NCBI RefSeq assembly: GCF_000021965.1
Contig: NC_011832.1
Span: 2,769,242 to 2,833,241, forward strand
DNA from: Methanosphaerula palustris E1-9c
GTDB taxonomy: Archaea; Halobacteriota; Methanomicrobia; Methanomicrobiales; Methanospirillaceae
Direction of reading: 5' to 3'
DNA length: 64,000 nt
The notes beneath the pieces are model-generated. The model ran no database searches. It was not told where the DNA came from and worked only from the letters and a program-made list of their open reading frames with translations. Within the stretch, counting starts at the first letter, position 1. Each line of letters opens with the position of its first letter. The translations under genes were made by a program, and so were the position numbers. Below, piece after piece: positions 45,268-52,076 of the stretch.

Positions 45268-45312
45268 CCTCCTCTTATGAGTACTGTATATAGCGAAAAT
45301 TATCTTTATAAT
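45268..45312 (-). promoter_or_regulatory. Promoter and ribosome site of the A-ATPase operon
   Basis: Reading leftward: ATTATAAA at 45305-45312, TATATA at 45287-45292, then GAGGAGG at 45268-45274 before the atpH ATG at 45262. Either AT element could be the TATA box. Confidence 0.5.
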
Positions 45313-45824
45313 TGTTGTTTCCTCTCAGCCGAAAGCGGACCAGTCATAGGGAGATCAACGTCGGTGACCGGCAACCTCTCCAGAATCTCATATGAAACGC
45401 CGGCAGAGAGGCCAGTAAGCTGGACCCCCTGAACCGTGCCGGAGAGGTTGATACCTGATAATTCATCTGATCCGCAGAGCAAGTGCTGGTCAGGATGAGT
45501 CCCTCGCTCTATTGCGCAGGAAAGGCTTACATAGGGACCTGCAGAGACGATGAACCGCAACCGTGCGGAGCCGGGATGACCCCTATTCATCACCATGAGT
45601 GGCATCCGGAAGGTTCTGACCAGTTCTATCAGCATCAACGCGGGTCTGATCAGACCACCCTCCGGGGCAGAGGCCACGATCAGGTCCCCTTGTTCCACCC
45701 CCTGCACCACCTCTTCATGAGAGGTCTCGATACAGAGAGGAAATACTGCGAGCGCCCTTCCAACCACGCAGAAGGAGTGCCCACCACGAATCAACAGATA
45801 TTCATCCCCAAGGGGAACGATCAT
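45306..45824 (-). CDS. Conserved hypothetical protein
   Basis: A 172-residue protein of no recognised family. It has a compact alpha/beta-like first part (MIVPLGDEYLLIRGG, DLIVASAPEGGLIRPALMLIELVRTFRMPLMVMNRG) and a beta-rich remainder with VSAGPYVSLSC and LLCGSDELSGINLSG. No signal peptide. It overlaps an upstream 43-residue zinc-ribbon gene by ATGA, so the pair is probably co-translated. Confidence 0.7.
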   Translation of the reverse strand: MIVPLGDEYLLIRGGHSFCVVGRALAVFPLCIETSHEEVVQGVEQGDLIVASAPEGGLIRPALMLIELVRTFRMPLMVMNRGHPGSARLRFIVSAGPYVSLSCAIERGTHPDQHLLCGSDELSGINLSGTVQGVQLTGLSAGVSYEILERLPVTDVDLPMTGPLSAERKQQL

Positions 45825-46026: not shown

Positions 46027-47961
46027 TCAGACGACTGTGTTGAACGCGATCAGGGCGATGATCACCATGATACAGGCATGCTTCACACCGGATCCGATCG
46101 AGGACTCGCCCATCTGCCCTGCGATCAACCCTGAAAAAAAGCCCTGCAGCAAACATGCATGGTAGAGCAACCGGTCGAAGGTCTTGATCGGGATCGAGCC
46201 AAGGCCAGAGAAGGCACCCCCTGCCTGAGAGACGGAACCGGGCTGGATTCCGCCGAGCACCGGCAGAAACTGGCTGGAGAGGACCCCAACAACGAAGATG
46301 AAAACCATGAACGAGAGGTAGACGATAGCCGTATAGATGAACATCTCACCCAGCCGCTCTTTTTTGAGGACATCCGACATCCTGGCATCACTGGCCGCGA
46401 TGTTCAGCACCTCGTTGATCTGCCCGCTCATCTCGCTGGCCTTGGTGATCAGTACCACCATTCTCGCGATGATCGGGGTGGTGATCCGCCGTTCAAACCG
46501 CATCAGCGCCTCAGAGAAGTTAGCCCCCCACTCCATGTCCCGCTTGATCCGCTTGATCTCGTAACCGAGCACCCCGAGGTTCGCGTTGACCATAATGGAG
46601 ATCGCCTGTGCCATCGTCAGTCCGACCTGGTTGATCCCGGCCATCCGATCCAGAAACTCGGGGATCGAGGATTCGATGCCCCCCAACTTCCGATTCCACC
46701 CCTCAAAGAAGACCGAATACGGGACAAGGATGATCAGTACTGCGATGACGATATGGTCGTCGACCAGATCGAGATAAGTCTCCAGGTCAGGAGCGCCCTG
46801 AACCATCAGCAGGTGAACGAGTACATAGATGATCCCGATCGGGACACTGATGTAGAGGATTCTGGACGGTTTCATCACAAATGCCTGCAATGGACTGGAA
46901 AGGAAGGCCTTCACCTGCCGCCACTTGTCGTACCTGGCCAGAGTTGCGAAGAATGGCTCTTCATCGGTCGTCTCCCTGACCCGAACATCAGAGAACTCAT
47001 GGAGGAGTTTTTTCTGGGTGAACCGGGAGACCACCTCGCTCTTGATCGAAACCAGATCTATCATCACCATGAAGAGGGAAGTCCCGACCGGGAGCATCAC
47101 ATAGGTGACCATAGAGAGCTGCAACACTGCAGACCCCCCCATCATCCCCATCACCACCATGATGATGATCAGAAAGAGGGGGCCGGCGACGAAGAGGGTC
47201 ACGTATGACTCTGCAACCAGCGAGAGGAAACCGAGGAACTGTTTCTGTTCAAACCGAGCCTCCTCCTGGAAGAGATGAACCCTTGTCGAGAGGAATGTGG
47301 CCATATCCCCGCCACTCTCGATCACCGAGAGGAGATCCTGAAGAAAGTCCTTCAACTTGGTCGACGGGGTCGTCAGGTTCAGCCGCCGAATCGCCGAGAC
47401 CTCGTCCAGACCGAAGAAGTCTGCGTCCCTGACGATCTGTCTAAACTCAAGTGCCACCTCACCATAGATGTTGGAATGATCGGAGATCGAGCGGAAGATC
47501 ACCATCAGTTCCCCACCACCCTTCCGCATTGCATACATGTAAGCAACCGCGTTGTGGAGGGTCAGGTTTATTTTGGTCGAACGGGTCCCTTTCTGGAGTC
47601 CGGGCCACTGAAGGGCGATAAAATAGGTGATGGCGGCGGCGATCGAGAAGGCCAGGGTCCCGACACCCACCTGCTCGATGATCCCCATTGGGATCGGACC
47701 GATCGAAACCGGCAGGTGAACGCCGGTAATCGGCGTGGTCATCGTGGTTCCGCTGGCCTTCTGCATCGCAATCACCAGGCCGGAGATCACAAACCCGACA
47801 ACCGCAAAGAGGATCCCTACCCCTATCGATCCCCCGATCGCATTGACCAGATAGTGCTCCACCGTCACCCCGGCACGGCTTGAGATCAGATCCGTGTTCA
47901 GTGTCTGCCATTTGATCGGGTCACGCGCCACCCAGTCCTGAACAAACCGCCACGACCTCAT
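46027..47961 (-). CDS. TadC/FlaJ-like secretion platform protein (type II secretion F domains)
   Basis: A 644-residue polytopic membrane protein with two T2SF-type domains, each with long cytoplasmic helices between transmembrane groups: FYGEVALEFRQIVRDADFFGLDEVSAIRR-type in the first half and ISIMVNANLGVLGYEIKRIKRDM in the second. It is the inner-membrane platform of archaeal pili/archaellum-like machines. Overlaps the ATPase gene by ATGA. No pilin gene was seen nearby, so pilus, archaellum or adhesion function cannot be told. Confidence 0.9.
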   Translation of the reverse strand: MRSWRFVQDWVARDPIKWQTLNTDLISSRAGVTVEHYLVNAIGGSIGVGILFAVVGFVISGLVIAMQKASGTTMTTPITGVHLPVSIGPIPMGIIEQVGVGTLAFSIAAAITYFIALQWPGLQKGTRSTKINLTLHNAVAYMYAMRKGGGELMVIFRSISDHSNIYGEVALEFRQIVRDADFFGLDEVSAIRRLNLTTPSTKLKDFLQDLLSVIESGGDMATFLSTRVHLFQEEARFEQKQFLGFLSLVAESYVTLFVAGPLFLIIIMVVMGMMGGSAVLQLSMVTYVMLPVGTSLFMVMIDLVSIKSEVVSRFTQKKLLHEFSDVRVRETTDEEPFFATLARYDKWRQVKAFLSSPLQAFVMKPSRILYISVPIGIIYVLVHLLMVQGAPDLETYLDLVDDHIVIAVLIILVPYSVFFEGWNRKLGGIESSIPEFLDRMAGINQVGLTMAQAISIMVNANLGVLGYEIKRIKRDMEWGANFSEALMRFERRITTPIIARMVVLITKASEMSGQINEVLNIAASDARMSDVLKKERLGEMFIYTAIVYLSFMVFIFVVGVLSSQFLPVLGGIQPGSVSQAGGAFSGLGSIPIKTFDRLLYHACLLQGFFSGLIAGQMGESSIGSGVKHACIMVIIALIAFNTVV

Positions 47962-49607
47962 TCAAGTATCCTGCGAAGATCAGTCTTGACGCGCATCACC
48001 CGCTGTGCATCGATGTAATAGGCCTGGAAGATTCGTGACACAGACCGGTAATCCCGGATATCCTGATCATGCATCGCCATCAACAGTTCCTTTCGAAGGG
48101 CGATCTCCTCATCGAGCTGGTCCCGTGACCATCCCCGCCGCTCGGCGATCGAGGCATAGACCTGTGATCTTCCGGTGTACGCGATCACATCTCTGATCGG
48201 GTCATAGGTGAAGACATTGTTCACCCGGAGGTTTCCGGTCGACGGATCGATCCCGACCACCTCGACGATCTCCTGACACCGGCGCACCCTGGCTGTACCC
48301 TGGTAGATCAGCCCCTGAATCGAGATCACATTCAGCGCCTGCACCATGTTCCGAGGAACATTCAGCGGTTCGCTCTCAAGACGGTGGATGGCCGCATCCA
48401 CACTCCCTGCATGCATCGTCGAGAAGGTGGTATGGCCAGTGTTCATCGCCTGGAAGAGGGTCTGGGCCTCGTTCCCTCGGACCTCCCCCACAATGATGTA
48501 CTCAGGCCGCTGCCGCATCGCAGACTTCAGCAGGGCGAACATATCGATCGTCGATGAACTCTCAGCCACCGACTCCCTGGTCACCGAAGCGATCCAGTTG
48601 TCATGGTACAGCGTAATCTCACGGGTATCCTCGATCGAGACCACCTTTGCAAGCGGGGTGATGAAAAGCGAGACGGCATTTAAAGAGGTGGTCTTCCCTG
48701 ATGCTGTGCCCCCGATGAAGAGGAGACTCTTGTTGTTCTCAATCGCAAGCCAGAAATAGACCAGAGCATCTGCATTGAAAGTATGATACTCCATCAGTTC
48801 AATCGGAGTGAACGGCTCCTCACGGAACTTTCGGATCGTGAACGATGTCCCCCGGGAGGTGACCTCCTTTCCGAGTGCCAGCTGCAACCGTGACCCATCC
48901 GGAAGCGTCGCATCGATTAAGGGACTCCCGATCGAGATATGCTTTCCTGAACGCTGAGCCAGTTTAATGGCGAGGGAGATAAGCGACTCCTCGTCGAACT
49001 TGATGTTGGTCTTGATGTTCCGGTATTTCCGGTGATAGAGGAAGAGAGGAATATTGGTCCCATCACAGGATATATCCTCGATATGGGGGTCCTTCATCAC
49101 CGCATCGATACGGGACCAGCCAAGGAAGTTCCGAATAAGGAAGTACTGGAGTTTGAACATCGTCGACTGTTCGAGTACCAGCCCGTACTCGACCAGAAGA
49201 CCATTCATCTTCTGAAAGAGGAGCTGGTTCTTGTCAAACCCGATCTCATCGTCAGTCAGGATCAGCACATCACGGAGATCCTCAAAGATCCGCTCGATCA
49301 GTTCATACTCAAACGGGGAGAGTTCGGGTTCATAGAGCACATATTCATCCTGCTGGGTCTTTCTGTTATGGACGATATTCACCTGGGAGCACCCTTCGTC
49401 GACCCAGTAGCTCTCGATCAGTTCATACTCATTCGGGAGGGTCCGATCCACCAGAGATCCATGGACAGCCGGGTCATACTCGGCGATCCTCTTATCATCA
49501 GTGACCTTACTCTTCAGGGATGAAAAGAATGATTGCGACTTTTGAGGTCCGGATTCCTTAACCTCTCCGCTTTTGAACCCGCTGATCAGATCGCGTAACC
49601 CTGTCAA
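47958..49607 (-). CDS. TadA/FlaI-like secretion ATPase
   Basis: A 549-residue hexameric VirB11/GspE-type ATPase driving pilus or archaellum assembly. Walker A is FIGGTASGKTTSLNA, the Asp box is VVSIEDTREITLYHDNW, Walker B is EYIIVGEVRGNEA, and the His box is GHTTFSTMHAGS. An N-terminal domain of about 190 residues precedes the core. Transcribed just before its platform partner. Confidence 0.94.
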   Translation of the reverse strand: MTGLRDLISGFKSGEVKESGPQKSQSFFSSLKSKVTDDKRIAEYDPAVHGSLVDRTLPNEYELIESYWVDEGCSQVNIVHNRKTQQDEYVLYEPELSPFEYELIERIFEDLRDVLILTDDEIGFDKNQLLFQKMNGLLVEYGLVLEQSTMFKLQYFLIRNFLGWSRIDAVMKDPHIEDISCDGTNIPLFLYHRKYRNIKTNIKFDEESLISLAIKLAQRSGKHISIGSPLIDATLPDGSRLQLALGKEVTSRGTSFTIRKFREEPFTPIELMEYHTFNADALVYFWLAIENNKSLLFIGGTASGKTTSLNAVSLFITPLAKVVSIEDTREITLYHDNWIASVTRESVAESSSTIDMFALLKSAMRQRPEYIIVGEVRGNEAQTLFQAMNTGHTTFSTMHAGSVDAAIHRLESEPLNVPRNMVQALNVISIQGLIYQGTARVRRCQEIVEVVGIDPSTGNLRVNNVFTYDPIRDVIAYTGRSQVYASIAERRGWSRDQLDEEIALRKELLMAMHDQDIRDYRSVSRIFQAYYIDAQRVMRVKTDLRRILE

Positions 49608-49743
49608 GTGTCCAGCTCCGGAACTGTTACCTCAGGTGTGTGCATTCAGGCTACATCAACCTACCCAATGAGATCATCATTCGTTCATCCTAGCAGCAGA
49701 AGGATCTGAATCTGCAGCGACAGATCAGGGGTGGGGATTGTCG

Positions 49744-50637
49744 ATGACAGAAGATGACAGAACATTAATCCAGACACCCTGCATACTAAAAGAAGAAAAG
49801 TCATGGAGGTCATCAGTGGCTGATAACAAGCGTATGCCCACCGGGATCACATCATTTGATCCGGTGATGGAGGGAGGAGTACCACCAGGGTCTGTGATCC
49901 TGCTACTCGGAGATATCGGGGCCGGTTCCACTGAGTTCGTCTACAGTTCAGTGATAAATCTCTCTGTCATGAAGAAGAGCCCGAGCAACCAGCGGCAGAT
50001 GCTCCCCGAAGAGATCAGGTACATCACGTTCACCAAGATGGAGGAGGACATCCGGCGGGATATCAACCTCTCCTTTGACCCTGAGATCACCGCCGGGCTG
50101 GGTGACGGTGTTCACTTCGATGATCTCTCTGAACAGTACTTCGATGCGAGCACAGTGCCTGGCGACTGGTACACCGAACGAGACCTGATGACCCGTCTGA
50201 AACGCCGTTCAGAACACAAATCCACCCTGGTGCAGCTGGCAACAGTGCTGAGTACGGTGGCAGAGAACAGTCTGGTCATCCTCGATTCGCTAACTGATAT
50301 CGCAACCAGTTACAGTGATACCGAAAACTGGAAGGAACTGACAGCGTACCTTCGTGGTCTGCAGCGGGTCTCAAAACGCTGGAACACGACCATCTATATG
50401 CTACTGACCGAAGGGATCCTGAACCGTTCGCAGATCCAGGAGATCGCCGATATCACCGATGCAGTCATCCTCTTTCGATGGGAGGAGAGCGTTGCCGCCC
50501 GGCGACAGCGGGTGATGTATTTTCAGAAGTTCCGCGGGGTGATGCCTCACCTCGAAGAGAACGACCTGGTGAAGTTTTCGGTCAGAATATCGCCGAAGAT
50601 CGGCTTTGAAGTCTCGAATATCAGGGTGATCATATGA
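49744..50637 (+). CDS. KaiC/RAD55-like ATPase with degenerate P-loop
   Basis: A 297-residue RecA-superfamily protein: GITSFDPVMEGGVPPGSVILLLGDIGAGSTEF carries the KaiC-type start, but the Walker A position reads GDIGAGSTE, lacking the Lys of GxxGxGKT. Walker B-like NSLVILDSLTDIA and the RRQRVMYFQKFRG region are recognisable. It is probably unable to hydrolyse ATP normally. It is divergent from the secretion ATPase and overlaps a second, intact KaiC-like gene by ATGA, suggesting a heteromeric pair. FlaH, a KaiC-like archaellum motor partner, is a possible analogue. Confidence 0.82.
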   Translation: MTEDDRTLIQTPCILKEEKSWRSSVADNKRMPTGITSFDPVMEGGVPPGSVILLLGDIGAGSTEFVYSSVINLSVMKKSPSNQRQMLPEEIRYITFTKMEEDIRRDINLSFDPEITAGLGDGVHFDDLSEQYFDASTVPGDWYTERDLMTRLKRRSEHKSTLVQLATVLSTVAENSLVILDSLTDIATSYSDTENWKELTAYLRGLQRVSKRWNTTIYMLLTEGILNRSQIQEIADITDAVILFRWEESVAARRQRVMYFQKFRGVMPHLEENDLVKFSVRISPKIGFEVSNIRVII

Positions 50638-51338
50638 GCGTGGACGAGGAACGGGTCAGGATGGGGATCGACGGACTCGACGAGATGCTGAGCGGTGGCC
50701 TGATCCCGGGGAGTTTTGCTGCGATCGTCGGGACCTACGGAACAGGAAAGACGACCTTCGCCCTGCAGTTCATCTGGGAGGGACTCATCCGTGGGGAGAC
50801 AGCCATCTACATCACCCTTGAGGAGAGTGAAGAGTCTATCGTCAGGTACATGCAGGTGAAAAGCTGGGATATCGACCAGTACCGGAACACCACGTTTTTT
50901 GTCCTGAAGCTCGACCCGACCAACTTTAACCTCTCAATAAACTCGATCAGAAATGATCTGCCGCCCCTGATCAAGAAGTATAATGCCAAGCGGGTCGTCT
51001 TCGACCCGATCTCTCTCTTTGAAGACCTCTTCGACACTGACTCTGCACGCCGGCATGAACTCTTCAGATTCGTCGATATGCTAAGAAGCGAGGACTGTAC
51101 CGTACTGATGACCAGCGAGGCCGACAAGGACAACCAGTATTCCAGCCGGCATAACCTGATCGAGTACCTGGTCGACACGGTGATTCTACTCAGGTACATC
51201 CGCTCCAATGAGTCATCACAGGTCCACCTGGCCCTGGAGGTCGTGAAGATGCGACTATCAGCCCATTCCCGTGAGATCAAACCCTACGAGATTCTCAGCG
51301 ACAGGGTGAATGTTTACTCTGAGGCGAATGTCTTTTGA
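50634..51338 (+). CDS. KaiC-like RecA-superfamily ATPase
   Basis: A 234-residue single-domain KaiC relative with intact Walker A GTYGTGKTTF and the family blocks GIDGLDEMLSGGLIPGS, AIYITLEESEESIVRYM and VVFDPISLFEDLF (Walker B). The following SARRHELFRFVDMLRSEDCTVLMTSE is typical. Coupled to the degenerate paralogue upstream. Possible roles are a signal-transduction ATPase or a FlaH-like motor regulator; neither is proven. Confidence 0.9.
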   Translation: MSVDEERVRMGIDGLDEMLSGGLIPGSFAAIVGTYGTGKTTFALQFIWEGLIRGETAIYITLEESEESIVRYMQVKSWDIDQYRNTTFFVLKLDPTNFNLSINSIRNDLPPLIKKYNAKRVVFDPISLFEDLFDTDSARRHELFRFVDMLRSEDCTVLMTSEADKDNQYSSRHNLIEYLVDTVILLRYIRSNESSQVHLALEVVKMRLSAHSREIKPYEILSDRVNVYSEANVF

Positions 51339-51539: not shown

Positions 51540-51785
51540 CTAGAAGGCGATCCCGGTCAGATGAAGCAGAAGAACGACCAACAACCCGGGAATTCCACCG
51601 AATCCAACGACAAGCACGGTGATCAGATTGACTGATACCGGGGGAAAGAGGAAGAGGTTGACCAGCACCAGGACGATCACCCCAACTACCGCATGAACCA
51701 GCAGGTACAGCAGGTTCTTCATAAAATAATAGAGTCCAGCTGCCAGGATGATGGCCAGAACCAGGACGAGCAGTTCCACAAACAT
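51540..51785 (-). CDS. BofA-like small membrane protein
   Basis: An 81-residue protein of almost only hydrophobic residues, with two or three transmembrane helices and the FGGIPGLLVVLLLHLTGIAF ending. It resembles the pro-sigmaK processing inhibitor BofA family, members of which occur in archaea that have no sigmaK, so its function here is unknown. It has a paralogue 40 bases upstream. Confidence 0.75.
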   Translation of the reverse strand: MFVELLVLVLAIILAAGLYYFMKNLLYLLVHAVVGVIVLVLVNLFLFPPVSVNLITVLVVGFGGIPGLLVVLLLHLTGIAF

Positions 51786-51824
51786 GAATGATAAATCGAG
51801 ACCTGACTGTATAATCCCTTCGAA

Positions 51825-52076
51825 TCAGATGGTGATACCAGCCAGGTGCAGAATAACAACGATCAGCAGCCCCGGAAGGCCCCCAAATGCACAGACCAGC
51901 ACCGATGCGACATCGATCGGGATAGCCGGGGTGAAGACATCGAAGTAGTTCAACCCATAGAGCACTATGATACCGACGATCGAGTTGATCAGCAGGGTCA
52001 GTGACTTCTTTAAAAAGTAGTAGATGACAACAGCCACAACAAAGGCGAGCAGCACCGTTAGCACTGATGCTATCAT
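51825..52076 (-). CDS. BofA-like small membrane protein (paralogue)
   Basis: An 83-residue hydrophobic protein aligned end to end with its downstream neighbour: YYFLKKSLTLLINSIVGIIVL and FGGLPGLLIVVILHLAGITI match YYFMKNLLYLLVHAVVGVIVL and the corresponding tail. A tandem duplication is the simplest origin. Immediately follows the tldE-like gene. Confidence 0.75.
   Translation of the reverse strand: MIASVLTVLLAFVVAVVIYYFLKKSLTLLINSIVGIIVLYGLNYFDVFTPAIPIDVASVLVCAFGGLPGLLIVVILHLAGITI

Follow-up and report, generated by a model that had tools for sequence, protein, structure and literature searches.

Gene content of the locus

The window, the whole stretch of 64,000 nucleotides that we analyzed, comes from the Methanosphaerula palustris E1-9c genome, a single contig of 2,922,917 bases. 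It contains two KaiC-like genes in tandem, P1 and P2, transcribed divergently from the two genes of a type IV pilus-type motor: the secretion ATPase T2SSE and the platform membrane protein T2SSF (Table 1). P1 and P2 share a strand and overlap by four bases (ATGA), an overlap kept at 54 of 78 loci and replaced by GTGA at one. The initial annotation had described both the overlap and the divergent TadA/TadC-like genes, and the open reading frames and Pfam matches bear this out.

Table 1. Genes and sequence features at the locus (window coordinates)
Feature	Position	Strand	Detail
h172, conserved protein without Pfam family	45306..45824	-	172 aa
T2SSF, TadC/ArlJ-like platform membrane protein (PF00482)	46027..47961	-	99 bits; 4-base overlap with T2SSE
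T2SSE, type IV pilus-type secretion ATPase (PF00437)	47958..49607	-	118 bits
P1, KaiC-fold protein without catalytic residues (pseudo-ATPase)	49744..50637	+	297 aa from ATG
P1 degenerate P-loop GDIGAGSTEFV	49909..49941	+	family form G-x-G-x-x-[ED]-F
P1 T97-K98, replacing KaiC catalytic Glu pair	50032..50037	+	
P1-specific conserved segment DLSEQYFDASTVPGDWY	50122..50172	+	positions 127, 133, 139, 142, 143 invariant
P1 Walker B strand VILDS	50275..50289	+	Asp invariant across order
P1 KFRG, equivalent of KaiC trans-acting K-x-R	50527..50538	+	
P2, intact single-domain KaiC-like ATPase (predicted), TIGR03880 KaiC_arch_3	50634..51338	+	234 aa
P2 Walker A GTYGTGKT	50730..50753	+	
P2 catalytic Glu pair E63, E64	50820..50825	+	
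P2 trans K-M-R	51246..51254	+	K and R invariant in 61/61
Two tandem BofA-like small membrane proteins (PF07441)	51540..52076	-	between P2 and pmbA

P1. Gene P1 has a possible alternative start, a TTG at 49738, and its ~25 initial residues are unconserved. The protein passes the Pfam KaiC model (PF06745) with 39.1 bits (gathering cut-off 26.6) and is not a member of TIGR03880 (16 bits, cut-off 249.45). Its predicted structure (pLDDT 82.6) matches the KaiC CI domain and FlaH at TMt 0.7–0.8. The nearest named relatives in public genomes belong to Methanomicrobiales.

The contrast noticed initially between a lysine-less P-loop in P1 and an intact one in P2 (GDIGAGSTEF versus GTYGTGKT) extends across the order. 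In 59 aligned P1 orthologues, the Walker A lysine position is occupied by N, S, G, H or M and never by K; the Ser/Thr position after it is variable, and the residue after that is E (49/59) or D (10/59). Three Methanospirillum-like sequences in a second set of 60 (L269, L274 and L290) read GSGKxEF, with the Lys present and the Thr/Ser absent.

Two further features had been missed. In P1, other residues stand in for both catalytic Glu of KaiC: T, S or K for the first, and K or R (or T or L) for the second; an E64–K98 salt bridge possibly fills the dead pocket. P1 also has an extra loop of its own, DLSxxYFDxSxVPxxWY in family form, which is modeled with partly low confidence and is a candidate contact or binding surface.

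The P1 alignments contain 24 to 39 invariant columns, which indicates purifying selection. We ruled out that P1 is a pseudogene, since its frame is intact and constrained in essentially all carrier genomes. Because the motif loss is order-wide and extends through the phylum, with an acidic residue conserved in its place, it is a maintained state. Judged by these alignments, the P-loop defect is ancient and selected, neither chance nor decay.

P2. The second protein belongs to TIGR03880 (315 bits, cut-off 249.45) and passes PF06745 with 177.5 bits (gathering cut-off 26.6). P2 has an intact Walker A motif and catalytic Glu where P1 has neither, and core members retain residues K39, T40, E64, D124, K205 and R207 with few or no exceptions. 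The predicted model (pLDDT 90.2) matches the KaiC CI domain with TM 0.8–0.9. Having both its cis and trans catalytic residues, P2 could be self-sufficient as a ring. In Methanocorpusculum-like genomes (L079–L084), P2 reads GTGRT, has lost the Glu pair and has Asn in place of the Walker B Asp, so that both partners look inactive; the motor genes of these genomes are relocated. (The names Methanocorpusculum-like, Halobacteria-like and Archaeoglobaceae-like were inferred, partly from tree position.)

Motor and flanking genes. The window motor combines a T2SSE-type ATPase with a T2SSF platform. The nearest NCBIfam model to T2SSE is FlaI, at 395 bits and under the cut-off of 550. This genome has just one other T2SSE-type ATPase, ArlI, encoded elsewhere. 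No pilins were noted adjoining the motor in the window; six Pilin_N genes lie elsewhere in the genome, and pilins do adjoin homologous motors at L212 (3' of T2SSF) and L141. With ArlI as the only other T2SSE and six Pilin_N genes to serve, the window motor is, on gene content, likely this genome's pilus assembler.

At least one copy of the BofA-like gene is retained at this site in most of the order, even after loss of the pilus block. On the other side, h172 separates T2SSF from the operon for the A-type ATP synthase. We considered h172 as a fifth member of the unit and rejected it, since it stays when T2SSF, T2SSE, P1 and P2 are lost; for the same reason it perhaps goes with the ATP synthase side.

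Co-occurrence and joint loss

We surveyed 100 genomes of the order, each at least 90% complete. P1 is found in 74, a count that leaves out four genomes with weak matches only (E above 1e-5), and P2 is found in the same 74. All 74 also have an orthologous T2SSE, although at L147 and L148 it sits on a broken or truncated contig. Most genomes of the order encode a second, paralogous pilus-type ATPase. Outside the Methanocorpusculum-like genus the two can be told apart by identity, which is at least 64% for the orthologue versus ~45–50% for the second ATPase.

Among the 26 pair-less genomes, 24 have the paralogous T2SSE only, a call based on score and, in two cases, on a tree. Two Methanocorpusculum-like MAGs (G085 and G088) keep a divergent T2SSE of the orthologous clade without the pair. 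In six Methanocorpusculum-like genomes, T2SSE and T2SSF have been relocated beside pilins and the P1/P2 pair is still there. The relocated T2SSE is not the other paralogue: a tree with ArlI as outgroup places it in the orthologous clade.

A species tree built from five flanking proteins puts the losses of the pair at 13; in 12 of them T2SSE and T2SSF went as well, removing all four genes. The empty loci lack T2SSF, T2SSE, P1 and P2 between h172 and the BofA-like gene or pmbA, with the flanks kept; at some, such as L117, the gap is filled by other sequence. The suggested tie between the pair and the adjoining motor thus holds in this order, in shared presence as in loss. Joint loss of neighboring genes could be partly mechanical, via single deletions.

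A mirror-tree test for contact between P1 and P2 gave a high partial correlation due solely to one fast clade; without the Methanocorpusculum-like clade, the P1–P2 rate correlation was no better than with an unrelated neighbor.

Distribution beyond the order

Of 393 genomes in the phylum, 201 encode a relative of P1. The relatives examined, including the Halobacteria-like and Archaeoglobaceae-like ones, have in common the lysine-less G-x-G-x-x-[ED]-F. Halobacteria-like homologues read GxxGAGAREF or GAGSREF, and Archaeoglobaceae-like sequences keep only remnants of a P-loop (e.g. GAGGREF).

The initial annotation had proposed checking for co-occurrence with secretion genes. Outside the order this held in part: several other families in the phylum have the same divergent T2SSF-T2SSE/P1-P2 block (L212–L216 and L218), and T2SSE also adjoins the pair at L302 and L303. 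It did not hold for Archaeoglobaceae-like genomes, which have the P1-P2 tandem with no T2SSE in the stretches examined (L219 and L308–L321), or for Halobacteria-like genomes, which have P1 alone with P2 and T2SSE absent nearby. The pair is therefore not specific to secretion loci; it either predates its position next to the motor or is not confined to that position.

Several of these loci have further companions. At L309, L311 and L313–L319, all Archaeoglobaceae-like, a third KaiC-like gene (GRxGxGKT) lies ~500 bases upstream of P1-P2. Two P1-P2 pairs are present in genome G121 (L217 and L218), one of them with T2SSE/T2SSF and the other without. At several loci of the haloarchaeal P1 homologue without P2 (L202–L211, L220 and L221), the next genes encode a conserved coiled-coil protein and a small acidic one; at L204 and L210 a zinc-ribbon TFS-like protein comes after these. 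P1 with the coiled-coil and acidic proteins is possibly the haloarchaeal version of the unit.

In a tree of P1, P2 and KaiC sequences, those of P1 form one clade on a long stem, haloarchaeal and Archaeoglobaceae-like members among them, and P2 groups with KaiC CI. The simplest reading of a separate long-stem clade is a single ancient loss followed by constraint. A recent P1-P2 duplication was ruled out by the separate clades and by a P1-P2 profile match of just 88.6% probability.

Proposed mechanism and alternatives

Because the pair is kept and lost together with the motor, we propose that P1 and P2 are a dedicated cytoplasmic control unit of the adjoining type IV pilus motor, with P2 as ring and P1 as adaptor (probability about 0.55). 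By analogy, a ring formed by the pair and controlling the motor is plausible. P2 would most likely assemble into a homohexameric ring whose active sites are complete in themselves. P1 would be an ancient KaiC-derived pseudo-ATPase that kept the fold and lost the use of ATP; it would most likely bind P2 through its conserved extra loop, either as a second ring or as an adaptor, and couple the nucleotide state of P2 to T2SSE. T2SSE and T2SSF would assemble pilins encoded elsewhere in the genome, and control would turn assembly on or off, as proposed for ArlH. We infer the ring architecture, the P1–P2 contact, the T2SSE contact and the direction of control.

The two proteins might instead alternate strictly in a heterohexamer, the K-x-R finger of P1 serving the P2 site so that only every second site works. 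This would explain why P1 keeps K262 (56/60 core sequences) and R264 (58/60) despite its own dead site, and why the Methanocorpusculum-like P1 lacks the Arg where P2 has GTGRT and lacks the Glu pair. Yet P2 would have no use for its own K-x-R opposite a dead P1 site, and that K-x-R is invariant in all 61 sequences even where P1 has drifted, which favors P2–P2 interfaces; in addition, the Archaeoglobaceae-like P1 lacks the Arg although its P2 has retained the P-loop. Strict alternation is for these reasons unlikely, and we prefer a P2 homo-ring with P1 as a dead second ring or adaptor.

Other readings dispense with contact to the motor. The pair could be a signaling or expression switch for pilus genes or some other process. 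Such a role has been proposed for other archaeal KaiC-like proteins, among them haloarchaeal CirA, which affects motility gene expression (PMC13286277), and in haloarchaea and Archaeoglobaceae-like genomes P1 or the pair is indeed encoded away from secretion genes. We find such a switch doubtful, since within the order the pair tracks exactly one of two pilus-type ATPases and not pili generally. Mere synteny, that is, four functionally unlinked genes in a stable region lost together by simple deletion, draws on the gene order from ATP synthase to rtcA, which is conserved in most of the order. Deletion alone is hard to reconcile with loss boundaries that fall between the same genes every time while the flanks remain, and with a pair that persists with T2SSE even when unlinked; we consider it very improbable.

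Returning to a control unit of P2 ring and P1 adaptor, a wider extension is tentative, with odds clearly below even. P1 may found a phylum-wide group of KaiC-derived pseudo-ATPases that serve type IV filament motors as rings or adaptors, fixed and blind to nucleotide. Methanogens and Archaeoglobi would combine such a protein with an active KaiC ring, and haloarchaea would use it by itself or together with a coiled-coil protein; the result would be a two-ring controller distinct from ArlH.

An obligate pair with one catalytically dead member would separate the structural from the catalytic role in motor control. Natural variants, namely the Methanocorpusculum-like P2 without catalytic residues and the lineages that lost all four genes, make the role of ATP in that control directly testable. 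For annotation, many Halobacteriota proteins labeled as ATPases are probable non-ATPases.

Comparison with known systems

A link between KaiC proteins and pili in Methanomicrobia is itself already published: KaiC families there are possibly co-transcribed with VirB11/TadC operons, and a regulatory role was proposed (Makarova et al., 2016, PMC4858521). P2 is a TIGR03880 (KaiC_arch_3) member, and candidate counterparts of the pair are the type IV pilus-linked KaiC families arCOG01172 and arCOG01173 of that work, whose passages on these families mention neither a catalytically dead partner nor four-gene all-or-none inheritance. We found no description of a dead partner or of joint inheritance in the literature covered, which did not extend to most journals behind a subscription or to the KaiC survey of 2017 (Makarova et al.).

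Cyanobacterial KaiC, with its CI and CII domains, shares with P2 the fold, the Walker motifs and the K-x-R, and likewise relies on two cooperating KaiC domains. There the two are fused in one chain, whereas here they are separate polypeptides, one of them without catalytic residues.

The functional parallel drawn here is ArlH (FlaH), which like P1 and P2 is a single-domain KaiC-like protein and whose partner ATPase is of the T2SSE family. ArlH sits as a ring on that ATPase and binds ATP without hydrolyzing it, and its autophosphorylation is proposed to switch contact with ArlI (PMC8978795). However, P1 (35.5 bits) and P2 (42.4 bits) both fall short of the ArlH model NF052589 (cut-off 215), and the archaellum uses one such protein where this locus has two. 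Nor is there an arl operon or ArlI neighbor here, as the adjoining T2SSE scores 395 bits against the ArlI cut-off of 550. A true ArlH (261 bits) is encoded elsewhere in the same genome, beside ArlI (725 bits). P1 and P2 are analogous at most to ArlH, and are not ArlH itself.
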